NCBI RefSeq assembly: GCF_964204865.1
Contig: NC_135263.1
Span: forward strand, 9,655,426 to 9,719,425
DNA: 64,000 nt
Reading direction: 5' to 3'
DNA from: Styela clava
Taxonomy: Eukaryota > Chordata > Ascidiacea > Stolidobranchia > Styelidae
A model generated the notes under the pieces. That model was not told the DNA's origin. It worked only from the letters and a program-made list of their open reading frames with translations, and did no database searches. Position numbers and translations under genes: made by a program. This document shows positions 40,698 through 63,686 of the stretch, one piece after another; positions within the stretch are counted from its first letter, which is position 1, and each line of letters begins with the position of its first letter.

Positions 40698-42538
40698 ATG
40701 GATGCAAAACTTCAATTTCTTGTTTGTTTCATCCTCATACTGTTGATAATCTACAACTCCCCAGTCACCGGGCTTTATCACGGATTCAAGAAGGGTAAGG
40801 GATGTTTCATGTCTCGCAACAATCGAGGTTGCCTAATCGAGGGTTATTTTCTTTATACTGAGAGTTAGGCTGGAGTCGTATTTATGATAGGCTTAATATC
40901 TTTGCAATAACTGAGACGAGGATAAGTAGCATTATGGGAAGATGCTAGGTAGAGCTAAATAAAATATAACTATTGCATATGGTATTCACCAGATAACTTT
41001 GAAATAGGAGTTGAGAGAAGATTGTATTTAGCTTGAAAGCTTATTCTAAACCGAATTTTTTGATTAATTAAGATATGTTATATTTAGCTTCAATGGAAAA
41101 ACCGCAACCGACTTAAATCAAAGGTCTCTAACCAGCAATGACAATATAATTATGAGACTATACCTCATTGTCCATATCACCGGGCATAATAATTATTCGA
41201 ATCCATACCATACATACCTCCATACATAATAGAATTAGGAAAAAGGGTTTTAACCAAAGACGTATTTGATTATTCAAGAACATGCATGTTTTGTCTTTCA
41301 CAGATGTTCAAAAACCTATGGATCTGGAACGTTTTGATAAAATTTTCGAGGGTAAGTTGAATTTTGAGATTCAATACGATCTTTTTATCGTTTCTCAAGT
41401 ATTAACTCAGTCTATAATATTTGTGTCTATGATTCAATCTGACACATATTTATATAAAATACGAACGCTAATGTCGTTTTGTTATATATATATAAATATA
41501 TATACTTTTGCAATTGTAATTTCGAGGAGGTATAGTATCCAAAAGTGGTTTGCATTTCATGTCGGTTTACCTGTCCTTGTATGCCAGAGGTGGCGTGATA
41601 AATATAAGTGGCTTAAAATATTTTTAACTGTAATATTTCGATTTGTATACGATTTGATTTTGGAACACATAGCCTGTTATAGTATATATACGGATTAGAA
41701 ATATTACGTCTGGATTGTTTATATATTTAAAGGACCGTGAAATAGTTTCAACTGAGAATTTTTTCAAAATGAACGTTTTCTTATATATTCGATTTTTTTC
41801 TTTCGTTCAGAAAATGAAATTTAACGTCAAACGCAATCATATATAATGCGTATACTTAGACAATGAGAAAAAAGAAGAAAATTATTTGTTGATTTCATTC
41901 TCTTTGTGTGTGAATAAAATAAATGCATAATAAAAATTGAATAGTTTGTATATATGTACATACATTAACATTGAGCATGTGATTCACTCGAAAATATAGT
42001 TATACAGTGGTGAATTGTAGCTAGAGCTATTACTGAAAAGAGGTAAAAGAGACGTAAAAGGATGTACCAAGGGCAAATTGTCCTTGTCCAAATTGTCCAC
42101 ATCATCGCGGGGGTGCGATTTTACATTCATTGTTGACCGTCAGTGAGAGTTATAGTTCAAATGCATATGTCTAATACCATGGACTAGGAGAAAATCGTAC
42201 AAGGTAACATCACAAGAAGACTTATCGCCTATAAACAGATCTATTAAATATATATATTAATTACAAAGTTCTAGGAAGACTGCATGATTTTATTACTGCT
42301 GTTATTACTTTCAGTGGCACAAATCCCTGTCATAATACAAACAAATTGCAACGGAAAAAGCATTCGGCGAAAACTCCTTATAAATATTTATCCTATACTT
42401 CATTTTATAAGCGTGTATTATGAGTTACAGGTTTCTGACGTAAAATACACACAAGGATCCGAATATAATAAACTAGGCTTTCAACGCGCGCGATTTTTTT
42501 TTTTAGTTTTTTTTTCCGAATGCGAATGTTTAACATAG
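40698..42538 (+). CDS. Small secreted protein, possibly lipocalin-like (founder gene X0)
   Basis: The exons proposed are 40698-40794, 41304-41351 and 42315-42538, all phase 1, giving 122 residues. Exon 1 is a signal peptide (MDAKLQFLVCFILILLIIYN.., cut near VTG). Exon 2 is exactly 48 nt, as in the minus-strand paralogues. Across the exon 2/3 joint the protein reads PMDLERFDKIFEVAQIPV and then IIQTNCNG. This resembles the first conserved stretch of lipocalins, 'FDLEKYxGxWYEIARIP...C', but the G-x-W is missing. The donor after exon 2 (GGTAAGTTG) is strong, although the frame stays open for 115 more codons if unspliced. Exon 3 is the least certain part. The lipocalin link is a hypothesis. Confidence 0.5.
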
Positions 42539-42742
42539 TGTTGGCTACATTAGACTCTAATATGCACACTTTTCTGTGCACAATTTTCTGGTGGAGGAAT
42601 GAGCGATATTATACTGGATTTCCCGATTTTATTTAATCCGAAGAGACGGAAATATTCGTAGAGCCCAAATGTAATTTTTGCTAGGTATGATTTTGATCTC
42701 TCAAAAGTACCTCATTTGCAAATCCTGCTCTTAGGCTCACGT

Positions 42743-42749
42743 TATAAAA
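42743..42749 (+). promoter_or_regulatory. TATA box upstream of Y1
   Basis: TATAAAA about 140 bases before the first ATG of Y1. It is conserved at 56514-56520 and 62918-62924 before Y2 and Y3. Confidence 0.5.
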
Positions 42750-42889
42750 GAAACTCTATTCAAAAAGGTAATTAATATGAATCACACAACAATTATCGGT
42801 GTATTATATTTAACAGCACACAAAACACGTTACTCTTCATTTTCATTGTTCAATGTTCATTTGATCAAATCTGGTTCTCTAAATTGAAA

Positions 42890-43102
42890 ATGCAGGAAAA
42901 CATGAATAAAGCGTCATTATTGAGTTGCGGTATGTTTATTATTCTAATATATATACCAACACTCAATAAATCATTTTGTTGGCAAAAATCTGTTTTGAAA
43001 TCAGATCAAGGTTGCATTGCAAAATGCGTTACAATTTCTTTCGTGAACCATGAAACAATCGATGGAGGTTTACAGCACATAATAAAAATGTTGGAAACGT
43101 AA
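42890..43102 (+). CDS. Small secreted-protein gene Y1
   Basis: 70 codons from MQENMNK; the inner Met (42902) begins a clear signal peptide, MNKASLLSCGMFIILIYIPT. The mature part has three cysteines (CWQ.., GCIAKC) and ends in 'VNHETIDGGLQHIIKMLET'. That end aligns with exon 2 of the X genes (V-x-[RH]-E-[ST]-[MI]-D..L..[FI]..[LM][FL]E), so Y and X share ancestry. In Y the exon-2-like part is preceded by 'acaatttctttcg', which looks like a splice acceptor with AG changed to CG. Y may therefore be an X copy reading through a lost intron. Function unknown. Confidence 0.45.
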   Translation: MQENMNKASLLSCGMFIILIYIPTLNKSFCWQKSVLKSDQGCIAKCVTISFVNHETIDGGLQHIIKMLET

Positions 43103-43230
43103 AACAATGGCTTATTTTATCTAGTACTTAAGAAATATTGTGAAAACATTTCAAATAATAGGTCAGGATAACGAAAAAAATTATGAAAGATAAACTTATT
43201 TTCAACTACATAAAATCGAAATACTCTGAC

Positions 43231-43517
43231 CTTCAAACAGGTTCTCAAACTTCTCCAGATCCATAGATTCACGAGGCACTGTAAAGAGATGTAAAATTGA
43301 TATTGCTGAAATACCCACTGGTACATATATGCTTAACCAGCGTAACTATATCAATCCTTTAGCTAATATTGAACAATGCATACAATTCATAAAAATGATA
43401 CAAGTGCTACAACTTACCTTCTTTATATCCATTGGCATTAAATGCCATAACTGACGAGTTCAAGAAGATCAGAATAAATGCAATTAAGCAAGTTAGAAAT
43501 TTTACATTCATTTTCAT
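43231..43517 (-). CDS. Small secreted-protein gene X1
   Basis: Exon 1 at 43418-43517 encodes the signal peptide MKMNVKFLTCLIAFILIFLN and a short start FNANGYKEG. After a GTAAGT donor, exon 2 at 43231-43278 is 48 nt, phase 1 to phase 1, and encodes VPRESMDLEKFENLFE. Exon lengths and phases equal those of the plus-strand gene at 40698. The donor after exon 2 would be GTCAGAG, which is weak. If it is not used, the frame stops after ten more codons at 43202. A third exon was not found. The gene is convergent with Y1, and about 130 bp separate them. Confidence 0.5.
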
Positions 43518-45756
43518 TTCTGGTATATAGTGTTACCTCGGATAAACGAACTATTAATCTGTGTTAAGTGAAAAAATTTTATCAAACAAAATTAATTATG
43601 CTTTAACCTAGTAATTTTTTGATTTTTGCTTTTTCAAATAGTTTGCTTAAAAGTACCACTAACACGATCCATGATGTTAGCTATCTATTTTTTACTCTAG
43701 ATAAGTATAAATTGAACAGCTACAATGGGCGTATATAAGAATATCCAAAACAGGCAGACAAGACAGGAAATAATTTGATTCAACTACCCTGTCAACCGAC
43801 AGTGATAGTTGTTTTACGTGCATTAGCACTGTTGATTTTTTTTTGCTCGATTGTTTCCTTTTGAACACAGTTCCTATCTGAAAGTATTCATCCGATATAA
43901 GATGTTACAAAAATACTTGTGCGACAAAGTAATCAAATTGGCTTCCTGGACCGAGACGAAATCATCATCTCACCGTCTATCTCTATCCTATGTCCTGACT
44001 AAAAAGAAAGACAGTCACACGTTAAATTATGTGGAAACGACATCCACGTACACGACGAACGTTTTTGGCAGTGTGTGGCTGAATGTGCATATCCGTTAAA
44101 ATGACACATCTATAATTTATCATATATATGAACTGATTTGTTGTTTAAACTAAGATCAAATATAGATCGTGTATTAGGTACATTAGAATAGCCTCCGTGT
44201 TGTCAGGTTCATATCACGGATTTCTTTGATTTTTTACATGGTGATAGTGCAGTTGGTAGAACGCAAAAGTTTTTTATAAATGTTTTCAAATTCAAAAAAA
44301 TAATGCATCAATTCATGACCCCGATTCATTTGCCAAATCATTGCGAATCACAATCTGTTGACAAAGTGGTTAAATCATACGATTTCCTATTTCGGTCAAC
44401 CCGTTTCCGAAAACAATCAATTTGACCAGAGATCAAGTCAATACATAATATATATGAATATTATCATCTGTCGGAACGTGGAAAAGCACCATTTTCACTG
44501 TCTATACCTCGGTATCGTTAAATTTATTGTCACACCAACTTCAAACGAATTCAGTGAAAAAATTTGCATCTTGCTCTTTCCCCACTACTTTCCCAAATTT
44601 GCTTTAAATAATGGAAGTGCTAGCAATTTGAAGTCCATTTTCGATGTGTTTGCCTGTCAGATCCAATCGATAAGGAGATTTCATAAAGCCCATTTTAGAA
44701 AAACATTGATTGTACAAATATGTTGACCCAGAAAGCGTCATATTTGAAACCATAGAATATTTCAAATGTGGAAAATTATCTTGGTTGCAATGTTTTCGGT
44801 AAAAATTGCCAAGATTTATTTTCAAACACTTCGCTGTCAAATCTGACTTATTCTCGAATAGATTTGTACAAAATCGACTGATATGCTGAAACCAAAACTC
44901 ATTTAGCTCCCGTATCTCATCATAGTAAAATTTTTCAACCTCTTTTCTAATTGCCTGACCTCTGATCACCGTCTGTGGGTTCGAATCCATGGTGTGGTTC
45001 ACGTAACCGCTGATCGGGTTCGGCTTCCTCAACCATCAAATCCGTGAATCCAAAACAAATAAATGGATCACGTGGACTGGTAACTGGGCGAGAGGCCGTG
45101 GTTCGCCATAATATACTTTAGACATCTCATGCCTCATACATTTTGCCGTTTTGAGAACTTATGATTTTGATTTTTTTATATATAAAAAATATTCGCGGTT
45201 CAGGAGTGTGTGTACCAATATGGAGGTAACTAATTTTGTTCGCCTACTTTACATCAAGTTGTATAAACTATAAAGAGACTGAAACCTATGGACAGGGGAT
45301 ATATTCATTTTGCTCACACAAACAGTCCTCAAACTCGTGATATAACTAATCGGCATAGTGTTATGGCCTAACCCTAATCTGGTACATATGCTACGGGAGT
45401 ACTAAAATATTAATTATGAAACTTATATTGCTATCTGAAATTGAATAAGTAAGTTTCCGTCTTCATTACTAATTGAGGGGCAAGTTAAAAGTAACTTGCA
45501 TGATTTTTTTTATTATTATTTTGTAACAGTTCCAATACAAACATTGATAGATAGATTTAAATTTATATTCAAAAAATGAATTTTAACTCGGCCAATATCG
45601 TATGACCAATCAGTTTTCTATTCGAAAATGAATTCATATTCTTGGGATTGTTTTGCAAATCTTGGGATTTTTCAACAATTTTCTTAAAAATAACCGATCG
45701 ACTGCAATAGAATGGAATCAATGTTACGATTACAGATCAAATTAATAACGCCAACA
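43518..45756. other. Array spacer, unit 1 left half
   Basis: 43845-44480 is a diverged relative of 46215-47040 within the same unit ('gaacacagttcctatctgaa', 'ttgccaaatcattgcgaatc'), so each unit has an internal two-fold repeat. A minus-strand frame at 44604-45032 ('LTAKCLKINLGNFYRKHCNQ') is broken in units 2 and 3, so I do not call a gene. A SINE piece lies at 44946-45110. Confidence 0.5.
44946..45110 (+). repeat. SINE piece, unit 1 (first)
   Basis: B-box GGTTCGAATCC in 'tctgtgggttcgaatccatg', then 'taaccgctgatcggg' and 'actgggcgagaggccgtggt' as in the full SINE at 29437. Counterparts are at 52566-52725 and 58910-59066. Confidence 0.6.
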
Positions 45757-46161
45757 ATGCCGACAAAATAGACAGCAACTAAACGTACGATACGACGTGC
45801 GCAAACAGAAAACGCCAGCTTGTATGTCGTGGAATTTACAAGATGGCAAAAAAGTCGATTCCGCTGCTTCAGGCAATTACTTGCCTCATCTATGCTAGAC
45901 AATGTTCAAATGTAGATACTGTGACGAATACCTGTGTTGGGATTGGCATAATAAAGTTCCATGTTGGGTAGAAAATTGTTCAGCAATCTTTCGCGTTCTT
46001 TATTATTCCGTTATTCGCTGATAAAACGCAATCTGATTCATATTTTGTACGTTTTGCCATAATTTTATGGAGCTTATGCTGGCAGTTAATGTCAAAACCT
46101 TGTGCAAACGTTGAATGCGTGACATCGGGTAATATAATTATCTTCCGCAGGCATCTCGATG
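45757..46161 (+). pseudogene. Histone H3 relic, unit 1
   Basis: Diverged copy of the relic described at 53693. Here the 'PRK' codons have become CCG ACA AAA followed by TAG. Later tracts keep R-W-Q-K-S and the stretch resembling the H3 'NLCAIHAKRVTI' and 'RRIRG' codons. It is not translatable. Confidence 0.4.
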
Positions 46162-47620
46162 TAACGTGTTGCATTACCGCAATATACGTACCGAAGGGCG
46201 GAACGAGATTAATCATTGCTACTCGATTGTTCCCTTTTGAACACAGTTCCTATCTGAAAGTATTCATCTGATATAAGATATTGCAAAAATACTTGTGCGA
46301 CAAATGAATCAAATTGGCTTCTTGAACCGAGACGAAATAATCATCTCATCTTTTCTCCTATGTCCTTACTAAAAGGAAAGACAATCTCACTTGAAGTCAG
46401 TGAGTTTTAGTCTTAATAATCGACGATAAATCATACATAATCCATTGTGAAAAATGTTATCAAGTATTGCATAATCTGACCAAAGTTTATCCCTATACCA
46501 TAATACTTTCATAGACGTTTGCGGAGTATCATGACAAATCAAGGGGAAAACAACATTCACGTTGTTGAGCGTTCCCGATTCTGGTTATCAGTAGTGTGTA
46601 GCTGAATGTACATATCCGTTAAAATGACACGTCTATAGTTTATCATATGAACTGATTTGTTGTTTAAACTAAGGTCATTACTTCATTTGAACCAGTAACT
46701 TTTATTGGAATGCCTTCAGTATTTCACTTAGTTTGTTACATAACATAAAAAGTTATATGAAAATAGAAAAAAAGATCGTATAATAGGCTTTATATCACGG
46801 GTTATTTTGATTCCGTACACGATACACAAAAGTTGTTTATAAATGTTTTCACCACCAAATTTAAAAACATAAGGTATAAATTCAAAATCACGATTCATTT
46901 GCCAAATCATTGCGAATCACAATCTGTTGACATGACGGGTAAAGCATGCGATTTCCTTTTCCGGTTTACCCGTATCCAAAAATAATTAACTGGAGCAGAG
47001 CTCAAATTTATACATAATATATATATTTGTATGATTACTGTCAAGTGCAAATACGCACCAATGCACCATTTCCACTGTCAATTCGGGTATCGGTAACTTC
47101 ATTGCGACATTCTGGCAATCTGTGCTTCCAAATCATTTTGCTAATGTTTTATTTTACGCAAACCTGTGGATAGATTTTTTAGGGCTTTATGTGCGACACG
47201 TCATCAGAATTGAAAATAATCACGCACCTTGTGGTGGTCAGGCGAAGTCGCAAAGACTACGGTACCGGTAGCATCCTATAACAGATTAACCCGTGTCCCG
47301 TACTACTTCGTTTTGGCCTTTTGTCTATATATGTAAGCCTCGTTCTCTTGTTGGACACGAAATGTGCGTAACGATCGTTTTGTTAATATGTCGTTGTTGT
47401 TCTTGTGTTATTATGTTGTTGTTGGTATTTTTCTTCTTGTTGTTATGAGAAAATCCCCCTTTTCATTAATTATTCGACCAATTGAAAATTTTCGTGGTCA
47501 AACATTGTATTTGTCGATAGAAGGTATATATTGCAAATATTTATTTGAAATATTTCGATGAAGTCATGAAAATTGCGCACCTTGTTGTTCCGCGTTTGTT
47601 GCTTGCTGGTGGTCAGGCGA
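46162..47620. other. Array spacer, unit 1 right half
   Basis: Includes the empty target site of the MULE-type MITE (CCGCAATAT once, at 46177-46185), the second half of the internal repeat (46215-47040), and a (ttg)n tract near 47395-47430 in the repeat shared with GALE intron 2. No gene recognised. Confidence 0.5.
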
Positions 47621-48775
47621 AGCTTGAGCGTTAGTAATGCGCTCGTCACCGCACTTCTGAATACCTTCTATGTCAGGGATGGCGAACCACTGACCCGCGG
47701 GTCACAAAGTGACCCACCGCGTTTTATTCGTGACCCGCCAAGGCACGAATAAAATATTTAAAAAAATGCTAACATACCAGTGATAAAAATTGATAAAACC
47801 GGCCTTAAATTAATTTAACAATACCTAAACTATTATAATCTACCGTCAGTTGGGCAGTCAGGGCCGCGAGAGCTCATATTCAAATTGTTAATTTCGGGAC
47901 GGTAATTTTCAAAACCCCTAATCTTGGACGCATGTCTGTAGTGCACCGCTGTGAACCATTATTCAGCTATTGGCTCTGACATCGTTTATGACATAACAAT
48001 GCAACTGATATGTTCATTTGTCGCTATGTCTGGTCTCTTTCGAAAGTTTATCTGCAGACTGTTTTAGGGGTTATGCGAGAACTAGATGCTACTTTGTATT
48101 TTATTAGTTCCTCGTCCGCAATATCGTTAGGAGAACAAAATCTTTCAGACTTGAAATAAAAGCCTAGAAATCTGAAATGACAATGGGGCAGTGTAAAAGT
48201 GCCTTAATGAGGTTGAAAATTGATCGAAAAATAGAACACTGTCAGGGTGGGATTCGCTCCAAACTCTTTGAAACCGTAAAATAATTTACTGCATCATCCT
48301 AAACGTTTTTGGTAATTCATATGCGTGTTTTCGTACTCTAATTTCATAAAATCGGGAGCCATAAAAAGTCCCTGATAGAAGTGATGCATAAGTAAAGCCT
48401 GAAACTACACCAACAGAAGCCTAAAAGATTTGTTTCAGAAGTTTCTCATAGATACAAACATTGATCATATATCTGTGACCCACTCTCTTCTGTTCCGCAA
48501 TAAAAATATAATTTTTGACCCATTCATTGAAAAAGGTTCGCCATCCCTGTTCTATAGGTTCGAATCCGTGGGGATAGTTACGTTCGAGAGGATTGCTGGA
48601 CTTCTCGTCAGCATAGGGTGGTCCACGTAACCGCCGGTCGGTTTCGGCTTCCTCCACCATCAAGTCCGTGCATCTAAAACTAAAACTGGCTAACTAATCC
48701 CATACCCGACGTAGACTGGTAACTGGGCGAGAGGCGGTGGTTGGTAAACGCGCGTCTAACGACATCTTTGATTAA
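47621..48775 (+). repeat. SINE copy in unit 1, split by a hAT element
   Basis: The tRNA-like head 'ggtcaggcgaagcttgagcg' lies before 47673 and the B-box GGTTCGAATCC at 48557-48567 lies after the hAT element. Uninterrupted counterparts are at 55790-56040 and 62135-62395. Confidence 0.65.
47674..48549. mobile_element. hAT element, 876 bp, private to unit 1
   Basis: The ends are CAGGGATGGCGAACC and GGTTCGCCATCCCTG, perfect 15-bp inverted repeats. Flanks are TTCTATGT (47666-47673) and TTCTATAG (48550-48557). Units 2 and 3 keep the empty site 'accttctataggttcg', so the 8-bp duplication was TTCTATAG with two later changes on the left. No transposase frame. Confidence 0.85.
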
Positions 48776-49513
48776 CCTGCGTTGGCGGTGATTATAAGCA
48801 TACGTTTAGTTCCCATAAACAACAGGGCGGCGCGAGGCGATCTCATGAATAAAAAATGTGGGGCTCCACGCGGTGTTACGTAGAACGTCGTCTTTTGTTT
48901 ATTCAACTCCCTAAAATTATTTATCCTATACTTAATTTTACAAGCGTTTATTTTGATTTACAGGTTTCTGACATAAAATACTCACAAGGATCCGAATATA
49001 ATAAACTAGGCTGTTAGCGCGCGCGATTTTTTTTTAGTTTTTTTTCTTAATGCGAATGTTTAACATAGTATTGGCTACACTAGACTCTAATATGCACACT
49101 TTTCTGTGCACAATTAATCATCTCATATTTCCTTCTATGTCCTGACTAAAAAGAATGACAATCTCACTTTAAGTCAGTGAGTTTTAGTCATCATAATCGA
49201 CGATAAGTCATACATAATCAATTGTGAAAAATGTTATAAGTTTATCCTTATGCCACAATTCTTCCATATACGTTTGCAGAGTATCACGTTAAATTATGTG
49301 GAAACAACATCCACGTACACGACGAACGTTTTTGGCAGTGTGTGGCTGAATGTGCATATCCGTTAAAATGACAAATCTATAATTTATCATATATATGAAC
49401 TGATTTGTTGTTTAAACTAAGGTCAAATATAGATCGTGTATTAGATACGTTAGAATAGCCTCCGTGTTGTCAGGTTCATATCACGGATTGCTTTGATTTT
49501 ATACACGATGATA
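48776..49513. other. Unit 1/2 boundary and deletion scar
   Basis: 48919-49020 resembles the last part of X0 exon 3 but hits a stop (GGC TGT TAG). At about 49115 'ctgtgcacaatt' runs straight into 'aatcatctcat', which in unit 3 lie 1.45 kb apart (56402 and 57853). The Y/X pair was deleted here, probably through the short 'aat.atca' match. Confidence 0.65.
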
Positions 49514-49684
49514 TAGTCCGGCAGATAAGGGGACCTTTTTGGCCCAAGTTTGATTTCAGACATAAAGTTTTTTTTATTTGTGATTATTCATCTTGGGGTC
49601 ATTGCCCATCATTTCTACATGGGTGTGGAGTTTGCAGCCTTGAGCAATTTTTTTTACGGCTCGATATTTGTATTAGTGTTTTTC

Positions 49685-49790
49685 GTCAAACCTGTGCATC
49701 ATAATGACGCACAACCTGAACCATAACCTGTTACAATACTATGTTTAGGTTGTGCGCAATCTTGGTGCACAAACTACGCAAGCACCAAGC
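49685..49790. mobile_element. Hairpin MITE copy inside the 2.4-kb transposon (left)
   Basis: Palindrome with 'atgacgcacaacctgaacca' and 'aggttgtgcgcaatcttggt', same family as 23050-23165. Confidence 0.55.
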
Positions 49791-51689
49791 ACCGTGCTCC
49801 CAGATAACCGATCAGCGGCCTCCAAGGAGGACGGGGTCCCCTTTTAAGAAACCCAGTCATAAACTAAAAGAGGCGACCGTGCTTCTCTTGCCTGTTGTCA
49901 TGCTGTCCCTGGAATTTAGCTACAACAAAAATTTCACAAGAACGGATTTTTAAATTTTATGATTTTATTAATATCCTCAACAATGAATGATATACGGGTG
50001 GTAAAATGCCAAGTTATTCCAACAACATGATCATGTTTTGCAATTTACAACTAATATTTTGTATGTAACTTTGTTTGACAGAGCCCCAAGAGCTCTAACT
50101 ACAAATATCAAATATGTGAGGCCAAAAAAAGCAGTGGCACACTACAACATTGTAAAATGTGCTGTATTTACGATAGATAATAGGTTTACCAAAAAGAATT
50201 ACATGAAAAATGGTAAAATAAAGATCAATTCAGCAATATCTACTTGGTGATATATGCATCTGTTGATGTTGTGTTTGTTTCGGAAGTTTAATAACAGAAT
50301 TAATTGTGGTTGTTGGGGATGTTTTATAAAAAGGTTGCATGGAAAAAAGTTTTCACAAAATGTCAAGGTTTGATAGTAGTAGAGAAGTAGAAAAAATACT
50401 CCCATGTTTTTTTTATTTTATTTGATAACCACGCCACAGAACTTCCCCGATAAGTATACGCAGCAATTGCGAGAGGCAGAAATGCCAAGATGGGATTTCA
50501 TCGCATTGCAAACCAATATTAGCAATTCTTATATATATTCGCGCATTCCCACCTGAACAGCGTGGAAAAGATTATACCCATCTACACACTTTAAGTACTA
50601 TGTCAGTGAGCTTCATATTATCGAATATCAGTAAAGGAATAGTGCAATGGGAAAAGACATATAAGGCGGAACTTTCAGTAGTATACAATCAAATAATCTT
50701 ATTGTAGAATATATATTTAAAAACATTTCGTCACGCCAACTGCAGTCCGAAACTTTTTGTCTCTGGCTGAGCTTAGATACCAATTGACACGCATGTAAAC
50801 TGGTAAGACTGTAAGAGGCACGCGATGGAGCAGATACTAAGAGTATCCATCCCCCAGCTGTCATTTGAGCGGGTACTGCTGTTTTTATTGCAGATGTTAC
50901 TGATCTTTTTGTATTTAAGATTTACTGGCATCACCGATTTAAGAATATTGGAAACCAACACGCAATATTACAAAACTTACTTTTAACACGAGGTTTGAAT
51001 GAATGAAAAAGCTGAAACTAGTATTCTTTAGAACAGCATACAAATTCTATGGAATGAAATCATACACAAAAGCTCGTCAAAAACCTATAGCTCAATAATC
51101 AAGTGGAATTTGATACATGTGCGCAAAAATGTGCGCGTTACTACGTACAACCGAAGCACGCAGGAAGATGTGTGTGATGTACTAGTATTCAAAACTTTGA
51201 CTCAACTATGTTGGCATAACAGGTGCACATCTCGGTTTCGCATACGCATACCTTCTATCTCCACAAGGATATATTAATTTTGCCAAAGTCAATGCAGCAC
51301 TGAAAGGTTGCGGTTCTTCCAAAAGAAAACTCGTTACACATCTTTAGATACCAGTGGATGGTTTTACATGGCCTTGTTCGGAGTGAAAGACGAGGTCAAA
51401 TATTCCAATCCAATTCAACTAATAAAATATTTCCCAAGTCCCTAAGCTTAAACTAGGAAAACGAAATGCGCGCGGCAACGCAAATGTAGTTTGAAGAGCG
51501 CAATAGAAAGTGGCTAGATGCTGTCGATGGATCTTGGCTTGTATTAGTGAAATAAACCACCATTTATTCTACTAAAATTAAATTTCTGACATTGTAAGGA
51601 GATTCAATGTTGCCATGTATGCAAAACTAAACCATGTAGTTATGAAATAATTGTTTTTAACAAAAAGGCGCTCCTGAAGTATTCGTACC

Positions 51690-51912: not shown

Positions 51913-53030
51913 GTGCAGTTGGTAGAACGCAAAAGTTTTTTATAAATGTTTTCAAATTCAAAAACATAATGCATCAATTCATGATCCCGATTCATTTGCC
52001 AAATCATTGCGAATCACAATCTGCTGAAATGGTGGTTAAACCATACGATTTCCTATTTCGGTCAACCCGTTTCCGAAAACAATCAATTTGACTAGAGATC
52101 GAGTCAATACATAATATATATGATTACTATCATCTGTCGAAACGTGGAAAAGCACCATTTCCACTGTCTACCCCGGTATCGTTAAATTTGTTGTCTCACC
52201 AACTTGCAGCTTGCTCTTTCCCGACTACTTTTCCAAATTTGCTTTAATTAATGAAGTGCTAGCAATTCGAAGTCCTTTTTCGATGTGAGATTTCATAAAG
52301 CCCATTTTAGAAAAACCTTGATTTTACAAATCTGTTGAGCCAGATAGTGTCATATTTGAAACCATAAATTATTTCAAATGTGGAAAGTTATCTTGGTTGC
52401 AATAATTTCGGTTAAAATTGCCAAGATTTATTTTCAAACACTTCACTGTCAAATCGGACGTATTCTCGACTAGATTTGTACAAAATGGACTGATATGCTG
52501 AAACCAAAACTAATTTAGCTCCCGTATTTCCTCATAGTAAAATTTCTAAACCTCTTTTCTAATTGCCTGACCTCTGATCACAGTCTGTGGGTTCGAATCC
52601 ATGGTGTGGTTCACGTAACCGCTGATCGGTTCCGACTTCCTCAACCATCAAATCCATGCATCCAAAACAAATAAATGGACCACGTGGACTGGTAACTGGG
52701 CGAGAGGCCGGGGTTCGCCATATGCTTGAGCCATCTCATGCTTCATACATTTTGCGGTTTTGAGAACTTATGATTTTGGTTCCTTATATATATAAAAAAT
52801 ATTCGCGCTTCAGGAGTGTGTGTGCCAATATGGAGGTAACTAATTTTGTTCGCCTACTTTACATCAAGTTGTAGAAAGGGACTGAAACCTATGGGCAGGG
52901 GGTATATCCACTTGGCGCACACAAACAGTCTTCAAACCTGTGATATAACTATTCGGAATAGTGTTATGGCCTAACCCTAACCTGGTACACATGCTACGGG
53001 AGTACTAAAATATTAATTATGAAACTTGTG
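51913..53030. other. Array spacer, unit 2
   Basis: Matches 44250-45410 of unit 1 and 58255-59370 of unit 3. It holds a SINE piece at 52566-52725. No gene recognised. Confidence 0.5.
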
Positions 53031-53038
53031 TTCTATGC

Positions 53039-53356
53039 CAGGGCTACTCAACTGGCGGACCGCGGTCCGAATCCTGACCTTTCGAGTATTTGATTCGGAC
53101 CGCACCTAATTCTTTATTTTAGATCATTAGCCCCACTTTTGAAGTTTTCTTTTATAAAATGACCCTTGTAGTTTTGAATATATATGAAAAGAACTATAAC
53201 ACCATAATAAGCAATTTTGATTAAATAATAATCATTAGCCGGTCGAGGAAGTGTGCGTTTTTAAGAATGCCGATATATAAATTCTGGAAAGACCGGAGCG
53301 AAATAATTTTGAAGTTTTGTATGCGGATCTTCGGTAAAAATAGTTGAGTAGCCCTG
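53039..53356. mobile_element. hAT MITE, 318 bp (unit 2)
   Basis: Perfect 14-bp ends CAGGGCTACTCAAC/GTTGAGTAGCCCTG and a perfect 8-bp duplication TTCTATGC (53031-53038, 53357-53364). It is absent from unit 1 near 45410. A copy at 59381-59698 in unit 3 has the same flanks and was spread by unit duplication, not by a new insertion. Confidence 0.9.
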
Positions 53357-53692
53357 TTCTATGCTATCTGAAATTGAATACATAAGTAAGCTTTCGTCTT
53401 CATTACTAAATGGGGGCCAAGTTAAAAGTAACTTGCATGATTTTTTTATTATTATTTTGTAACAGTTCCAATACAAACATTGATAGATAGTTCTAAAATT
53501 ATATTTAAAAAATGAATTTTAACGCGGCCAATATCGTGTGACCAATCAGTTTTCTATTCGAAAATGAATTCATATCCTTGGGATTCTATTGCAAATCTTG
53601 GGATTTTTCAACAATTATCTTGAAAATAACCGATCGACTGCAATAGAATGGGATCAATGTTACAAGAACAGATCAAATTAATAACGCCAACA

Positions 53693-54098
53693 ATGCCGAG
53701 AAAATATACAGCAACTAAACGTACGATACGACGTGCGCAAACAGAAAACGCCAGCTTGTATGTCGTGAAATTTTCAAGATGGCAAAAAAGTCAATCCTGC
53801 TGCTTCAGGCAAATACTTGCCTCAACTATGCGAGACAATGTTCAAATGTAGATACTGTGACGAATACCTATGTTGGGATTGGCATAATAAAGTTCCATGT
53901 TGGGTAGAAAATTGTTAAGCAATCTTTCTCATTCTTTATTATTCCGTTATTCGCTGATAAAATCGCAATCTGATTCATATTTTGTACGTTTTGCCATAAT
54001 TTTATGAAGCTTAAGCTAGCAGTTAATTTCAAAACTTTGTGCAAACGTTGAATGCGTGACATCCGGTAGAATAATTATCTTCCGCAGGCATCTCGATG
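53693..54098 (+). pseudogene. Histone H3 relic, unit 2
   Basis: The frame from 53693 reads MPRKYTATKRTIRRAQ, against H3 'APRKQLATKAARKSA' (8 of 14 core positions the same). After a deletion relative to H3, the sequence around 53763-53820 keeps 'cgtgaaat', codons for K-S and a Leu-rich run matching '[20 protein letters not shown]' across a frameshift. Near 54035-54095, 'aactttgtgcaaacg..gcgtgacatc' and 'cgcaggcatctcg' correspond to the 'NLCAIHAKRVTI' and 'RRIRG' codons. Order and spacing (about 390 bp against 340 expected) fit a decayed H3 or H3 variant. Stops and shifts make it non-functional. Confidence 0.5.
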
Positions 54099-54140
54099 TA
54101 ACGTGTTTGCGAATATAGCTATCTTGCATTACCGCAATAT

Positions 54141-54343
54141 GGTGACCGTACATTTGAACCCATGTACATTTGCACCCATGCGTATATCCACGGGTTCAAT
54201 CTATATGCGGGTGCTAAAACCCATGGGTTAGGGTTAGTATGGGTTTAACTATCCGTGAAACAAAAAAAATTCCATAGGTGCAATAGCATACAGGTGCAAT
54301 TGTCATGGGTTCAAATGTACGTGGGTTGAAATGTAATGGAACC
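54141..54343. mobile_element. MULE-type MITE, 203 bp (unit 2)
   Basis: Imperfect terminal inverted repeats (GGTGACCGTACATTTGAACC against GGTTCCATTACATTTGAACC). A perfect 9-bp duplication CCGCAATAT is at 54132-54140 and 54344-54352. Unit 1 has a single CCGCAATAT at the same place. Carries 'gggttagggtt'. Confidence 0.85.
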
Positions 54344-54352
54344 CCGCAATAT

Positions 54353-55789
54353 ACGTACCGAAGGGCCGAACGAGATTAATCATTGCTACTCGATAGTTCC
54401 CTTTTGAACACAGTTCCTATCTGAAAGTATTCATCTGATATAAGATATTGCAAAAATACTTGTGCGACAAATGAATCAAATTGGCTTCTTGAACCGAGAC
54501 GAAATACATCTTTTCTCCTATGTCCTGACTAAAAGGAAAGACAATCTCACTTGAAGTCAGTGAGTTTTAGTCATCATAATCGACGATAAATCATACATAA
54601 TCCATTGTGAAAAATGTTATAAAGTATTGCATAATCTGACCGAAGTTTATCCCTATACCATAATACTTTCATAGACGTTTTCGGAGTATCATGACAAATC
54701 AAGTGGAAAACAACATTCACGTACACGACGAGCGTTCCCGATTCTAGTTATCGGTAGTGTGTAGCTGAATGTGCATATCTGTTAAAAGGACACGTCTATA
54801 GTTTATCATATGAACTGATTTGTTGTTTAAACTAAGGTTATTATTTCATTTGAACCAGTAACTTTTAATGGAATGCCTTCAGTATTTCACTTAGTTTCTT
54901 ACATAACATAAAAAGTTATATAAAAATAGAAAAAAGGATCGTGTAATAGGCTCCATATCACGGGTTATTTTGATTCCGTACACGATACAAGAAAGTTTTT
55001 TATAAATTTTTCAACACCAAATTCAAAAACATAAGGTATAAATTCATGGTCACGATTCATTCGCCAAATTATTGCGAATCACAATGTCGGTTAAAGCATG
55101 CGATTTCCTTTTCCGGTCTACTCGCATCCGAAAACAATTACCTTGAGCAGAGCTCAAATCAATACATAATGTATATATTTGTATAATTACTGTCAAGTGC
55201 AGATACGCACCAATGCACAATTTCCACTGTCAATTCGGGTATCGTATCATTAACTTCATTGCGACATTTCGGCAACCTGTGCTTCCAAATCAATTTGCCA
55301 ATGTTTTATTTTACGCAAACCTGTGGATAAATTTTTTAGGGCTCTATGAAATCCCTTTTTGCGACACGTCATCAAAATTGAAAATAATTGCGCACCTTGT
55401 GGTGGTTTTGCGTTAGTGGTCAGGCGAAGTCGCAAAGACTACGGTACCGGTAGTATTCTATGCCAGATTAACCCGTACTACTTCGTTTTGGCCTCTTGTC
55501 CATGTATGTAAGCATCGTTCACTAGTTGGACACCAAGTGTGCTTAACGATCGTTTTGTTAATATGTCGTTGTTGTTCTTGTGTTATTATGTTGTTGTTGT
55601 TGTTGTTGGTATTTTTCTTCTTGTTGTAATGAGAAAATCCCCTTTTTCATTAATTATTCGACCAATTGAAATTTTTAGTGGTCAAACATTGTATTTGTCG
55701 ATAGAAGGTATATATTGCAAATATTTATTTGAAATATTTCGATGAAGTCATGAAAATTGCGCACCTTGTTGTTCCGCGTTTGTTGCTAG
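54353..55789. other. Array spacer, unit 2 right half
   Basis: Equivalent of 46186-47620. A (ttg)n tract at about 55590-55607 is longer than in unit 1. No gene seen. Confidence 0.5.
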
Positions 55790-56040
55790 CTGGTGGTCAG
55801 GCGAAGCTTGAGCGTTAGTAATGCGCTCGTCACCGCATTTCTGATTACCTTCTATAGGTTCGAATCCGTGGGGATAGTTACCTTCGAGAGGATTGCTGAA
55901 CTTCTCGTCAGCATAGGGTGGTCCACGTAACCGCCGGTCGGTTTCCTCCACCATCAAGTCCGTGCATCTAAAACTAAAACTGGCTAACTAATCCCATACC
56001 CGACGTGGACTGGTAACTGGACGAGAGGCGGTGGTTGGTA
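55790..56040 (+). repeat. SINE copy, unit 2
   Basis: Head 'ggtcaggcgaagcttgagcg', B-box GGTTCGAATCC, then 'accgccggtcggtttcctcc' and 'actggacgagaggcggtggt'. No hAT insertion, in contrast to unit 1. Confidence 0.65.
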
Positions 56041-56660
56041 AACGCGCGTCTAACGACATCTTTGATTAACCTGCGTTGGCGGTGATTATAAGCATTTTTA
56101 GTTCCCAAAAACAACAGGGGGGCGCGAGGCGATCGCATGAATAAAAAATGTGGGGCTCCACGCGGTGTTACGTAGAACGTCGTCTTTTGTTTATTCAACT
56201 TCCTAAAATTATTTATCCTATACTTCATTTTATAAGCGTTTATTTTGATTTACAGGTTTCTGACATAAAATACTCACAAGGATCCGAATATAATAAACTA
56301 GGCTTTTAGCGCGCGCGATTTTTTTTTAGTTTTTTTTCTTAATGCGAATGTTTAACATAGTATTGGCTACACTAGACTCTAATATGCACACTTTTCTGTG
56401 CATTTAATCCGAAGAGACGGAAATATACGTAGAGCCCAAATGTAATTTTTGCTAGGTATGATTTTGATCTCTCAAAAGTACCTCATTTGCAAATCCTGCT
56501 CTTAGGCTCACGTTATAAAAGAAACTCTATTCAAAAAGGTAATTATTATGAATCACACAAGAATTATCGGTGTATTATATTTAACACTACACAAAACACG
56601 TTGCTCTTCCTTTTCATTGATCAATGTTCATTTGATCAAATCTGGTTCTCTAAATTGAAA

Positions 56661-56873
56661 ATGCAGGAAAACATGAATAAAGCGTCATTATTGAGTTGCG
56701 GTATGTTTATTATTCTAATATATATACCAACACTCGATAAATCATTTTGTTGGCAAAAATCTGTTTTGAAATCAGATCAAGGTTGCATTGCGAAATGCGT
56801 CACAATTTCTTTCGTGAACCATGATACAATCGATGAAGGTTTACAGCACATAATAAAAATGTTGGAAACGTAA
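56661..56873 (+). CDS. Small secreted-protein gene Y2
   Basis: 70 codons, same signal peptide as Y1. Differs at TLDKS for TLNKS and 'HDTIDEG' for 'HETIDGG'. The frame is also open upstream to 56487, but that part contains the TATA box and is probably not translated. Copies Y2 and Y3 are the same in this frame. Confidence 0.45.
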   Translation: MQENMNKASLLSCGMFIILIYIPTLDKSFCWQKSVLKSDQGCIAKCVTISFVNHDTIDEGLQHIIKMLET

Positions 56874-57002
56874 AACGATGGCTTATTTTATCTAGTACTA
56901 AAGGAATATTGTGAAAACATTTCAAAGAATGAGTCAGGATAACGAAAAAAAATTATAAAAGATGGACTTCCTTCCAACTACATAAAATCGAAATACTCTG
57001 AC

Positions 57003-57282
57003 CTTCAAACAGGTTCTCAAACTTCTCCAGATCCATAGACTCACGAGGCACTGTAAAGAGATGTAAAATTTATATTGCTGGAATATCCACTGGTACATAT
57101 ACTTATAACCAGCGTAACTATATCAATCCTTTAGCTAATATTGAACAATGCATACAATTCATAAAATGATACAAGTGCTACAACTTACCTTCTTTATATC
57201 CATTGGCATTAAATGCCATAACTGACGAGTTCAAGAAGATCAGAATAAATGCAATTAAGCAAGTTAGAAATTTTACATTCAT
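57003..57282 (-). CDS. Small secreted-protein gene X2
   Basis: Exons 57189-57282 and 57003-57050. The first ATG of X1 is lost here, so translation would start at the next Met, MNVKFLTCLIAF. Exon 2 is again 48 nt in phase 1 and unchanged in protein. Without splicing after exon 2 the frame runs 16 further codons with a different end from X1, so the downstream sequence is not conserved as protein. This favours a splice donor at GTCAGAG or a decaying gene. Confidence 0.45.
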
Positions 57283-59380
57283 TTTAATTTCTGGTATATA
57301 GTGTGTTACCTCAGATAAACGAATCTATTAATCTGTTTTAGGTGAAAAAAATTATCAAACCAAAATAAATATGCTTTAACCTAGTAATTTTTTGATTTTT
57401 GCTGTTTCAAATAGTTTGCTTGAAAGTACCACTAACACGATCCATAATGTTAGCTATCTTTTACTCTGGATAAGTATAAATTGAGCAGCTACTGTCCCAA
57501 TAAAGTATCGGAATATCCCAATGAAGTTAAATGCTCTTGAATAGGCATTATAAGTGAAAATTGGTATCGTTTTCTGCATAAAGTCATAAATCATATTATG
57601 CATCGATTTTTTTCTCTGCGCAAATAAATTGTTCTCGGAAACAGGCAAACAGGGCAGGAAATCATTTGATTCAACCACCCTGTCAACAGACAGTGATAGT
57701 TGTTTTCCGTGCATTAGCACTGTTGAAATCTTTTTTCATCGGATTGTTCCCTTTTGACCACAGTTCCTATGCGGAGGTATTCCTCTGATGTAAGATGTTG
57801 CAAAAATACTTGTACGACAAATGAATCAAATTGACTTCTTGAACCGAGACGAAATAATCATCTCATATTTCCTTCTATGTCCTGACTAAAAAGAATGACA
57901 ATCTCACTTGAAGTCAGTGAGTTTTAGTCATCATAATCGACGATAAGTCATACATAATCCATTGTGAAAAATGTTATAAGTTTATCCTTATGCCACAATT
58001 CTTCCATATACGTTTGCAGAGTATCACGTTAAATTATGTGGAAACAACATCCACGTACACGACGAACGTTTTTGGCAGTGTGTGGCTGAATGTGCATATC
58101 CGTTAAAATGACAAATCTATAATTTATCATATATATGAAATGATTTGTTGTTTAAACTAAAGTCAAATATAGATCGTGTATTAGATACGTTAGAATAGCC
58201 TCCGTGTTGTCAGGTTCATATCACGGATTGCTTTGATTTCATACACGATGATAGTGCAGTTGGTAGAACGCAAAAGTTTTTTATAAATGTTTTCAAATTC
58301 AAAAACATAATGCATCAATTCATGATCCCGATTCATTTGCCAAATCATTGCGAATCACAATCTGTTGAAATGGTGGTTAAACCATACGATTTCCTATTTC
58401 GGTCAACCCGTTTCCGAAAACAATCAATTTGACTATAGATCGAGTCAATACATAATATATATGATTACTATCATCTGTCGAAACGTGGAAAAGCACCATT
58501 TTCACTGTCTACCCCGGTATCGTTAAATTTGTTGTCTCACCAACTTGCAGCTTGCTCTTTCCCGACTACTTTTTCAAATTTGCTTTAATTAATGGAAGTG
58601 CTAGCAATTCGAAGTCCTCTTTCGATGTGAGATTTCATAAAGCCCATTTTAGAAAAACATTGATTGAACAAATATGTTGAGCCAGAAAGTGTCATATTTG
58701 AAACCATAAATTATTTCAAATGTGGAAAGTCATCTGTGTTGCAATAATTTCGGTAAAAATTGCCAAGATTTATTTTTAAACACTTCGCTGTCAAAACTGA
58801 CGTATTCTCGACTAGATTTGTACAAAATCGACTGATATGCTGAAACCAAAACTAATTTAGCTCCCGTATCTCCTCATAGTAAAATTTTTCAACCTCTTTT
58901 CTAATTGCCTGACCTCTGATCACCGTCTGTGGGTTCGAATCCATGGTGTGATTCACGTAACCGCTGATCGGTTTCGGCTTCCTCAACCATCAAATCCATG
59001 CATCCAAAACAAATAAATGGACCATGTGGACTGGTAACTGGGCGAGAGGCCGTGGTTCGCCATATTCTTGAGCCATCTCATGCCTCATACATTTTGCGGT
59101 TTTGAGAACTTATGATTTTGGTTCCTTATATATATAAAAAATATTCGCGCTTCAGGAGTGTGTGTGCCAATATGGAGGTAACTAATTTTGTTCGCCTACT
59201 TTACATCAGGTTGTAGAAAGGGACTGAAACCTATGGGCAGGGGGTATATCCACTTGGCGCACACCAACAGTCTTCAAACTCGTGATATAACTAATCGGAA
59301 TAGTGTTATGGCCTAACCCTAACCTGGTACACATGCTACGGGAGTACTAAAATATTAATTATGAAACTTGTGTTCTATGC
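57283..59380. other. Array spacer, unit 3 left half
   Basis: Matches 43518-45410. A minus-strand frame at 57454-57720 is open here but not in unit 1. A SINE piece lies at 58910-59066. No gene recognised. Confidence 0.5.
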
Positions 59381-59698
59381 CAGGGCTACTCAACTGGCGG
59401 ACCGCGGTCCGAATCCTGACCTTTCGAGTATTTGATTCGGACCGCACCTAATTCTTTATTTTAGATCATTAGCCCCACTTTTGAAGTTTTCTTTTATAAA
59501 ATGACCCTTGTAGTTTTGAATATATATGAAAAGAACTATAACACCATAATAAGCAATTTTGATTAAATAATAATCATTAGCCGGTCGAGAAAGTGTGCGT
59601 TTTTAAGAATGCCGATATATAAATTCCAGAAATACCGGACCGAAATAATTTTGAAGTTTTGTATGCGGATCTTCGGTAAAAATAGTTGAGTAGCCCTG
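59381..59698. mobile_element. hAT MITE, 318 bp (unit 3)
   Basis: Same ends, length and TTCTATGC flanks (59373-59380, 59699-59706) as the copy at 53039-53356. Inherited through unit duplication. Confidence 0.9.
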
Positions 59699-60034
59699 TT
59701 CTATGCTATCTGAAATTGAATATATAAGTAAGCTTTCGTCTTCATTACTAAATGGGGGCCAAGTTAAAAGTAACTTGCATGATTTTTTTATTATTATTTT
59801 GTAACAGTTCCAATACAAACATTGATGGATAGTTCTAAAATTATATTTAAAAAATGAATTTTAACGCGGCCAATATCGTGTGACCAATCAGTTTTCTATT
59901 CGAAAATGAATTCATATCCTTGGGATTCTATTGCAAATCTTGGGATTTTTCAACAATTATCTTGAAAATAACCGATCGACTGCAATAGAATGGGATCAAT
60001 GTTACAATAACAGATCAAATTAATAACGCCAACA

Positions 60035-60440
60035 ATGCCGAGAAAATATACAGCAACTAAACGTACGATACGACGTGCGCAAACAGAAAACGCCAGCTTG
60101 TATGTCGTGAAATTTTCAAGATGGCAAAAAAGTCAATCCTGCTGCTTCAGGCAAATACTTGCCTCAACTATGCGAGACAATGTTCAAATGTAGATACTGT
60201 GACGAATACCTATGTTGGGATTGGCATAATAAAGTTCCATGTTGGGTAGAAAATTGTTAGGCAATCTTTCTCATTCTTTATTATTCCGTTATTCGCTGAT
60301 AAAATCGCAATCTGATTCATATTTTGTACGTTTTGCCATAATTTTATGAAGCTTAAGCTAGCAGTTAATGTCAAAACTTTGTGCAAACGTTGAATGCGTG
60401 ACATCCGGTAGAATAATTATCTTCCGCAGGCATCTCGATG
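60035..60440 (+). pseudogene. Histone H3 relic, unit 3
   Basis: Nearly identical to 53693-54098, with the same frame start MPRKYTATKRTIRRAQ and the same lesions, so it was dead before units 2 and 3 separated. Confidence 0.5.
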
Positions 60441-60482
60441 TAACGTGTTTGCGAATATAGCTATGTTGCATTACCGCAATAT

Positions 60483-60685
60483 GGTGACCGTACATTTGAA
60501 CCCATGTACATTTGCACCCATGCGTATATCCACGGGTTCAATCTATATGCGGGTGCTAAAACCCATGGGTTAGGGTTAGTATGGGTTTAACTATCCGTGA
60601 AACAAAAAAAATTCCATAGGTGCAATAGCATACAGGTGCAATTGTCATGGGTTCAAATGTACGTGGGTTCAAATGTAATGGAACC
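60483..60685. mobile_element. MULE-type MITE, 203 bp (unit 3)
   Basis: Same length and CCGCAATAT flanks as the copy at 54141-54343, inherited through unit duplication. Confidence 0.85.
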
Positions 60686-60694
60686 CCGCAATAT

Positions 60695-62134
60695 ACGTAC
60701 CGAAGGGCGGAACGAGATTAATCATTGCTACTCGATTGTTCCCTTTTGAACACAGTTCCTATCTGAAAGTATTCATCTGATATAAGATATTGCAAAAATA
60801 CTTGTGCGACAAATGAATCAAATTGGCTTCTTGAACCGAGACGAAATAATCATCTCATCTTTTCTCCTATGTCCTGACTAAAAGGAAAGACAATCTCACT
60901 TGAAGTCAGTGAGTTTTAGTCATCATAATCGACGATAAATCATACATAATCCATTGTGAAAAATGTTATAAAGTATTGCATAATCTGACCGAAGTTTATC
61001 CCTATACCATAATACTTTCATAGACGTTTGCGGAGTATCATGACAAATCAAGTGGAAAACAACATTCACGTACACGACGAGCGTTCCCGATTCTAGTTAT
61101 CGGTAGTGTGTAGCTGAATGTGCATATCCGTTAAAATGACACGTCTATAGTTTATCATATGAACTGATTTGTTGTTTAAACTAAGGTCATTACTTCATTT
61201 GAACCAGTAACTTTTAATGGAATGCCTTCAGTATTTCACTTAGTTTCTTACATAACATAAAAAGTTATATAAAAATAGAAAAAAGGATCGTGTAATAGGC
61301 TCCATATCACGGGTTATTTTGATTCCGTACAAGATACAAGAAAGTTTTTGATAAATTTTTTCAACACCAAATTCAAAAACATAAGGTATAAATTCATGGT
61401 CACGATTCATTCGCCAAATTATTGCGAATCACAATGTCGGTTAAAGCATGCGATTTCCTTTTCCGGTCTACTCGCATCCGAAAACAATTAACTTGAGCAG
61501 AGCTCAAATCAATACATAATATATATATTTGTATGATTACTGTCAAGTGCAGATACGCACCAATGCACAATTTCCACTGTCAATTCGGGTATCGTATCAT
61601 TAACTTCATTGCGACATTTTGGCAACCTGTGCTTCCAAATCAATTTGCCAATGTTTTATTTTACGCAAACCTGTGGATAGATTTTTTAGGGCTCTATGAA
61701 ATCCCTTTTTGCGACACGTCATCAAAATTGAAAATAATTGCGCATCTTGTGGTGGTTTTGCGTTAGTGGTCAGGCGAATTCGCAAAGACTACGGTACCGG
61801 TAGTATTCTATGCCAGATTAACCCGTACTACTTCGTTTTGGCCTTTTGTTCATGTATGTAAGCATCGTTCACTAGGTGGACACGAAGTGTGCTTAACGAT
61901 CGTTTTGTTAATATGTCGTTGTTGTTCTTGTGTTATTATGTTGTTGTTGTTGTTGTTGGTATTTTTCTTCTTGTTGTAATGAGAAAATCCCCTTTTTCAT
62001 TAATTATTCGACCAATTGAAATTTTTAGTGGTCAAACATTGTATTTGTCGATAGAAGGTATATATTGCAAATATTTATTTGAAATATTTCGATGAAGTCA
62101 TGAAAATTGCGCACCTTGTTGTTCCGCGTTTGTT
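60695..62134. other. Array spacer, unit 3 right half
   Basis: Matches 54353-55789, with the (ttg)n tract at about 61940-61957. No gene seen. Confidence 0.5.
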
Positions 62135-62395
62135 GCTAGCTGGTGGTCAGGCGAAGCTTGAGCGTTAGTAATGCGCTCGTCACCGCATTTCTGATTACCT
62201 TCTATAGGTTCGAATCCGTGGGGATAGTTACCTTCGAGAGGATTGCTGAACTTCTCGTCAGCATAGGGTGGTCCACGTAACCGCCGGTCGGTTTCGGCTT
62301 CCTCCACCATCAAGTCCGTGCATCTAAAACTAAAACTGGCTAACTAATCCCATACCCGACGTGGACTGGTAACTGGGCGAGAGGCGGTGGTTGGT
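62135..62395 (+). repeat. SINE copy, unit 3
   Basis: Same layout as 55790-56040, with the fuller 'ggtttcggcttcctccacca' body that unit 2 lacks. Confidence 0.65.
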
Positions 62396-63064
62396 AAACG
62401 CGCGTCTAACGACATCTTTGATTAACCTGCGTTGGCGGTGATTATAAGCATACGTTTAGTTCCCAAAAACAACAGGTCGGCGCGAGCCGATCGCATGAAT
62501 AAAAAATGTGGGGCTCCACGCGGTGTTACGTAGAACGTCGTCTTTTGTTTATTCAACTTCCTAAAATTATTTATCCTATACTTCATTTTATAAGCGTTTA
62601 TTTTGATTTACAGGTTTCTGACATAAAATACTCACAAGGATCCGAATATAATAAACTAGGCTTTTACCGCGCGCGATTTTTTTTTAGTTTTTTTTCTTAA
62701 TGCGAATGTTTAACATAGTATTGGCTACACTCTAATATGCACACTTTTCTGTGCACAATTTTCTGGTGGAGGAATGAGCGATGTTATACTGGATTTCCCG
62801 ATTTTATTTAATCCGAAGAGACGGAAATATACGTAGAGCCAAAATGTAATTTTTGCTAGGTATGATTTTGATCTCTCAAAAGTACCTCATTTGCAAATCC
62901 TGCTCTTAGGCTCACGTTATAAAAGAAACTCTATTCAAAAAGGTAATTATTATGAATCACACAAGAATTATCGGTGTATTATATTTAACACTACACAAAA
63001 CACGTTGCTCTTCCTTTTCATTGTTCAATGTTCATTTGATCAAATCTGGTTCTCTAAATTGAAA

Positions 63065-63277
63065 ATGCAGGAAAACATGAATAAAGCGTCATTATTGAGT
63101 TGCGGTATGTTTATTATTCTAATATATATACCAACACTCGATAAATCATTTTGTTGGCAAAAATCTGTTTTGAAATCAGATCAAGGTTGCATTGCGAAAT
63201 GCGTCACAATTTCTTTCGTGAACCATGATACAATCGATGAAGGTTTACAGCACATAATAAAAATGTTGGAAACGTAA
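63065..63277 (+). CDS. Small secreted-protein gene Y3
   Basis: Same 70-codon frame as Y2. It sits in unit 4 with the same TATA box and convergent X partner. Confidence 0.45.
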   Translation: MQENMNKASLLSCGMFIILIYIPTLDKSFCWQKSVLKSDQGCIAKCVTISFVNHDTIDEGLQHIIKMLET

Positions 63278-63406
63278 AACGATGGCTTATTTTATCTAGT
63301 ACTAAAGGAATATTGTGAAAACATTTCAAAGAATGAGTCAGGATAACGAAAAAAAATTATAAAAGAGGGACTTCCTTTCAACTACGTAAAATCGAAATAC
63401 TCTGAC

Positions 63407-63686
63407 CTTCAAACAGGTTCTCAAACTTCTCCAGATCCATAGATTCACGAGGCACTGTAAAGAGATGTAAAATTGATATTGCTGAAATATCCACTGGTAC
63501 ATATACATATAACCAGCGTAACTATATCAATCCTTTAGCTAATATTGAACAATGCATACAATTCATAAAATGATACAAGTGCTACAACTTACCTTCTTTA
63601 TATCCATTGGCATTAAATGCCATAACTGACGAGTTCAAGAAGATCAGAATAAATGCAATTAAGCAAGTTAGAAATTTTACATTCAT
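63407..63686 (-). CDS. Small secreted-protein gene X3
   Basis: Exons 63593-63686 and 63407-63454, starting MNVKFLTCLIAF as in X2, with the 48-nt exon VPRESMDLEKFENLFE intact. Sequence past exon 2 again differs (a stop ten codons on if unspliced). Convergent with Y3. Confidence 0.45.

Follow-up and report, generated by a model that had tools for sequence, protein, structure and literature searches.

In Ciona, the linear cationic antimicrobial-peptide precursors Ci-MAM, Ci-PAP and those of the KH.S921 family are short, begin with a signal peptide, are cysteine-free after cleavage and have an acidic C-terminus, and most Ciona precursors run from the signal peptide through a cationic segment to an anionic helix, as set out in the parts of PMC7387483 drawn on here. 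The precursors modelled below are likewise short, start with a putative signal peptide and would be cysteine-free after cleavage, with an acidic C-terminus, and one of the Ciona precursor ends in those parts has their pattern MDLE....L.E. They differ from the Ciona precursors given there in carrying no convincing cationic amphipathic segment, and the similarity is marginal after correction. Schistosome micro-exon genes (MEG) are alike in that duplicated genes yield secreted products from short exons; they have long series of alternatively spliced micro-exons, whereas the models of the present genes comprise three exons, with a single short internal one (parts of PMC10526429). More generally, an excess of phase-1 introns close to where the signal peptide is cleaved is well known (parts of PMC1626468).

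The genes lie in a 64,000-nt stretch of Styela clava DNA (the window), which has 32-38% G+C and is eukaryotic, and animal by its genes. A preliminary description had proposed that several tiny secreted proteins sharing a fixed 48-nt exon form a family, spread in both orientations, and the family itself is supported as far as sequence can tell. With a probability of about 0.7, the plus-strand gene X0 on one side and the minus-strand genes X1, X2 and X3 on the other go back to two old paralogues in inverted orientation, one of them later amplified in tandem; the gene has three exons and would code for a secreted precursor of 51-53 residues. The basis for this reading is homology between two lineages, splice dinucleotides, equal phases, equal ends and tandem copies.

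Gene models and their tandem context

Allowing one substitution at most, the six-frame translation of the window contains the motif MDLE[RK]F at four places: 41318 (+), 43264, 57036 and 63440 (-). At all four, the 48-nt exon is preceded by AG, followed by GT, and in phase 1 at both ends. Splice sites and phases confirmed the earlier claim that X0 and X1-X3 have two exons in common, the first signal-peptide-like with a phase-1 end, the second of 48 nt and in phase 1 on both sides (Table 1). Further family members were found in the window neither by the motif scan nor by a scan for 48-nt frames. We consider it probable that this is a real gene family, each gene encoding a very short secreted peptide of ∼27 residues.

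Table 1. Modelled exons and associated features of the four genes, in window coordinates
Feature	Position	Strand	Remarks
X0 exon 1	40698..40794	+	signal-peptide-like, 97 nt, phase-1 end, donor gtaagg; aligns with X1 exon 1
X0 exon 2	41304..41351	+	48 nt, phase 1-1, encodes DVQKPMDLERFDKIFE; acceptor ttttgtctttcacag, donor gtaagt
X0 terminal exon	41811..41824	+	E-N-E-I-stop; matches X1 ENQI
X0 possible polyadenylation signals	41913..41934	+	AATAAA at 41913 and 41929, 88 and 104 nt past the stop
X1 exon 1	43418..43511	-	signal-peptide-like, donor gtaagt
X1 exon 2	43231..43278	-	48 nt, VPRESMDLEKFENLFE; acceptor tacatctctttacag, weaker donor gtcaga
X1 terminal exon	42865..42878	-	E-N-Q-I-stop
X2 exon 1	57189..57282	-	gene model
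X2 exon 2	57003..57050	-	one synonymous difference from X1
X2 terminal exon	56636..56649	-	gene model
X3 exon 1	63593..63686	-	gene model
X3 exon 2	63407..63454	-	gene model
X3 terminal exon	63040..63053	-	gene model
Tandem array, 6.4-7.3-kb units	42372..64000	.	starts near 42372, 48905, 56197 and 62555; self-BLAST

The modelled precursors have 52 residues in X0 and 51 in X1, or 53 if X1 starts at an extra ATG two codons earlier (43517), which is present in X1 alone, the other copies having ATT there. Among acceptors read in phase 1 after exon 2 of X0, none listed has a pyrimidine tract as rich as that of the terminal exon at 41811 (93%); the corresponding X1 acceptor has a tract of 71%, which is not the richest of its list. 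In X1 and X3 an AATAAA follows the stop by ∼230 nt. In X2 a 51-nt deletion took out the downstream AATAAA, and the adjoining variant ATTAAA was kept. These hexamers after the stops count as supporting evidence only, since AATAAA is frequent in A+T-rich DNA.

X0 stands immediately before the tandem array, whose last unit is cut by the window end. Units 1, 3 and 4 carry X1, X2 and X3, respectively, and unit 2 has no X gene. X1-X3 are 94-99% identical in DNA, marking them as recent tandem copies of one gene. The four proposed members therefore count as two independent ones. The spread in both orientations likewise comes down to one inverted pair, X0 and X1, the other two copies having arisen by tandem duplication, as self-BLAST indicates.

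Several other features of the array and its surroundings were recorded. Unit 2 (49112) lacks ∼1.45 kb including the X gene and contains a 2.4-kb insertion (49513-51910). A stretch of ∼325 nt, CAGGGCTACTCAACTGGCGGACCGCGGTCC..., is found in units 2 and 3 (53036-53362 and 59378-59704), not in unit 1, and may be a small non-autonomous DNA transposon. A repeat of ∼200 nt containing GTACATTTGAACCCA or a close variant lies at 23991-24192 (inverted), 54143-54343 and 60485-60685. Opposite intron 2 of X1-X3, a 70-codon ORF (MQENMNKASLLSCGMFIILIYIP...) with three Cys after a hydrophobic stretch is open in all three copies (42890-43102, 56661-56873 and 63065-63277, all +). It has no Pfam family, and by eye its copies at X1 and X2 differ at three non-synonymous and two synonymous sites, which does not demonstrate selection; read from the second Met, the frame is similar to the Ciona consensus MNKSALL (0.4% of shuffles). 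Elsewhere the window holds Mucin2_WxxW domains, an epimerase gene fragment, a gene for COP9 signalosome subunit 6 whose product closely matches CSN6 chains of known structure (E 2e-85), and a LINE at 18650-22408 (-) with a 956-codon frame containing endonuclease and reverse transcriptase domains, preceded by a 295-codon frame. Positions 1-9907 form a tandem duplication (offset ∼5.4-5.7 kb, 92-93% identical) with Mucin2_WxxW domains in the first copy at 1196-1816 and 1798-2178 (-) and similar ORFs in the second at 6873-7493 and 7475-7855. Rfam at gathering scores and ARAGORN gave nothing in the window.

Homology, constraint and the terminal exon

Open phase-1 frames of 48 nt between AG and GT are common, with 149 in the window, so that it is the match in peptide sequence that matters and not the frame. 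The 145 frames outside the family score at most 6 against the two family peptides; between X0 and X1 the score is 39. Exon 2 taken alone is moderately beyond chance, as the best of 40 Markov windows reached 36, and an unrelated repeat at 45668, 53604 and 59946 (-) scores 31-32 in the exon-2 comparison and lies outside the top frames of the 48-nt scan. For the joined proteins (exons 1-3), 22 of 53 positions are identical between X0 and X1, with a score of 107 against 43 for the best of 2000 exon-wise shuffles, a match well outside chance. Different codons are used at 13 of the 20 identical non-Met residues, and DNA similarity between 40600-42500 and the reversed 43000-43800 (31) is not above that of shuffles (30-34 in the five best of 30). 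Judged from the sequences, this is the pattern to be expected where the protein has been conserved and the DNA has otherwise drifted; the lack of DNA similarity above shuffles between X0 and X1, together with the tandem origin of X1-X3, means that two lineages are in view. Signal peptides had been said to have diverged more than the second exon, and this is only slightly true: the identities, counted by hand on the alignment of the joined X0 and X1 proteins, are 12/32-33 in exon 1, 7/16 in exon 2 and 3/4 in exon 3.

The ending of the genes was sought among candidate terminal exons with a pyrimidine tract of at least 60%, taken on either strand from 41352-43230 (11 after X0, 13 after X1). The best pair of equal length is ENEI/ENQI, with a score of 17; the next reaches 14 with 29% identity. 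Among 1000 random Markov-2 pairs, none combined a score of at least 15 with 75% identity, a criterion that was fixed after the ENEI/ENQI match had been seen and that covers equal-length pairs only; with identity disregarded, 12 of 1000 reached the score. The last exon that had been proposed for X0 (VAQIP, at 42315) is probably wrong. It lies past the two AATAAA at 41913 and 41929, which would terminate X0 upstream of it, the breakpoint of the tandem unit (42372) falls within it, and the acceptor at 41811 gives an ending like that of X1.

Within the array, the modelled CDS of X1 and X3 differ at none of 156 positions as against 61 of 1181 outside (Fisher p 0.0004), and those of X1 and X2 at one, a synonymous difference, as against 62 of 1136 outside (p 0.0025). 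In a block test the constraint is weak: when blocks of matching sizes were drawn at random, 4.2% of the sets had at most one variable column. For X2 and X3 no constraint is visible (p 0.52), these copies being too alike to show it, and between X0 and X1 dS is saturated, leaving no usable dN/dS (from an alignment with the gap at the start, unlike that of the joined proteins above).

Alternative readings

The weak exon-2 donor of X1-X3 (GTCAGA), the loss of AATAAA in X2, the disappearance of the gene from unit 2 and the inability of the X2-X3 pair to reveal constraint would all agree with the X genes being copies, decayed or never expressed, of a gene for a small secreted protein that was functional in the past. 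We think this rather improbable, as there are no frame breaks and no lost AG or GT in any of the four copies and the CDS of X1-X3 is almost invariant. The same weak donor favours a different ending of X1-X3 from that of X0, either by read-through of exon 2, which in X1 gives GQSISILCS-stop, or through an exon VLDKISH[CR]FTF...SRKKL-stop of 32 codons near exon 2, which would yield a basic C-terminal peptide. The frame of the latter is open in all three copies and closes with TAA in X1, with TGA in X2 and X3 (by eye). Such an ending is possible and yet unlikely: the read-through ends are not alike among X1, X2 and X3, the acceptor of the VLDKISH exon in X1 is AAG, and the ENQI ending agrees with ENEI of X0. 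Far less probable, and in our opinion next to negligible, is that exon 2 of X0 spliced to VAQIP is the diverged start of a lipocalin or other calycin. Lipocalins start with F-G-K-W-Y-E-I-A-R-I-P, with G-x-W in the first conserved region, and form a barrel of ∼150 residues. By eye FDKIFEVAQIP recalls that start, and the acceptor at 42315 is good, with 71% pyrimidine, opening a 74-codon frame. The run shared with lipocalins, D-L-E-R-F....E-V-A-Q-I-P, however, exists only in the X0 joint of the preliminary description, which is itself unsupported for the reasons given above (the AATAAA pair and the breakpoint). At the place of G-x-W stand D-K-I in X0 and E-N-L in X1, and no VAQIP-like exon is among the candidates listed for X1-X3. 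The supported model has 51-53 residues and even the VAQIP-joined X0 has 122, short of the barrel. A profile search of that joined protein gave no Pfam family at E up to 1, the 36-residue X0 joint matched nothing in PDB at E up to 10, and the joined 122 residues gave, at the same limit, five weak PDB matches, none a lipocalin. We therefore rejected a lipocalin identity, given the absence of G-x-W and of any family match and the unsupported joint; the lipocalin reading would have misled.

A relationship to ascidian-type linear antimicrobial-peptide precursors, in which the acidic part would have been kept while the basic part shrank or sits on an unrecognised exon, is an unlikely alternative. 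The anionic end of KH.S921.1, MDLEDMQLLWE, resembles MDLEKFENLFE of X1 with a score of 33, equalled in 3 of 2000 shuffles when this one segment is compared; taken as the best of 18 Ciona segments, the shuffle fraction becomes 0.06 for X1 and 0.16 for X0, a marginal similarity, and the best segments for X0 are others, S775.5 and MAM-A. The putative signal peptide of X0 agrees with the Ci-MAM consensus (equalled by 1 of 5000 shuffles) and that of the shorter X1 form with a second Ciona consensus (0.18% of shuffles); the best fits are thus to different consensuses, among eight comparisons, and shuffling of signal peptides overstates significance. At 51-53 residues, the X precursors fall within the 50-100 residues of a Ciona-type LCAMP. 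After the signal peptide, however, the model has a 7-residue basic/aromatic stretch in place of a cationic amphipathic helix, and the mature peptides have a negative net charge of about -2 and -4. A search of intron 1 for a hidden cationic exon gave none in X1, where the intron has 139 nt, and one weak candidate in X0 (GWSRIYDRLNIFAITETRI, 50% pyrimidine, charge +1). The open phase 1-1 frames that the introns contain in addition to exon 2 (one and three in X0, none and two in X1), which bear on the comparison with schistosome MEGs, are unsupported. With no convincing cationic part, we did not make the Ciona-type LCAMP assignment and keep it as a lead. One may also speculate, at very long odds, that these are a new family of stand-alone secreted acidic peptides in which the anionic pro-segment of an antimicrobial-peptide precursor survived and the cationic killing part was lost, and which now neutralise the animal's own cationic peptides outside the cell, the genes being kept in variable copy number.

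A putative secreted peptide and its role

We return to the preferred reading, that of old paralogues of one three-exon gene. According to this model, exon 1 would encode the signal peptide, followed by a few basic and aromatic residues (LYHGFKK or FNANGYK), and exon 2 with the four-codon terminal exon the conserved acidic tail [PS]MDLE[RK]F-x-x-[IL]-FEEN[EQ]I. The signal peptides were judged by eye from a hydrophobic N-terminus with -3/-1 sites, and cleavage is predicted after about VTG or VMA. Transcription and secretion would then produce a linear, cysteine-free, acidic peptide of 27-28 residues, its net charge of about -2 or -4 being a hand count. The working part may be the conserved acidic tail, which either a partner would bind or which would serve as an acidic pro-segment. 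An amphipathic alpha-helix in the tail was considered and dropped, as its helical moment at 100 degrees, the angle of the shuffle comparison, is ordinary, 49% and 59% of shuffles being as high; the moment itself is higher at 120 degrees.

Pfam and PDB searches of the family proteins gave no convincing family or solved structure. A Pfam match of X0 to Ac76 (E 0.025, 15 bits against a cut-off of 22.5) and a PDB leucine-rich-repeat match of X1 (E 0.04 over the full sequence, 77 and 89 for the single stretches) were taken as chance. In viral contigs, 33 pattern matches yielded no relative by tblastn. Among the matches listed by a literature search, titles and the starts of abstracts held no description of such a family, which is weak evidence of novelty, and four sequence strings taken from the family motif led to no paper.

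The product is most likely, on this evidence, a lineage-specific extracellular peptide, with a role in host defence as a first guess. X0 and X1-X3 are probably a real small family of an ordinary kind, that of lineage-specific secreted peptides. Annotation can easily overlook genes this small, with a last exon of four codons, or model them wrongly, and here the likely gene ending emerges only from the comparison of two diverged paralogues. If expressed, these genes would add a family of secreted peptides that undergoes copy-number change.
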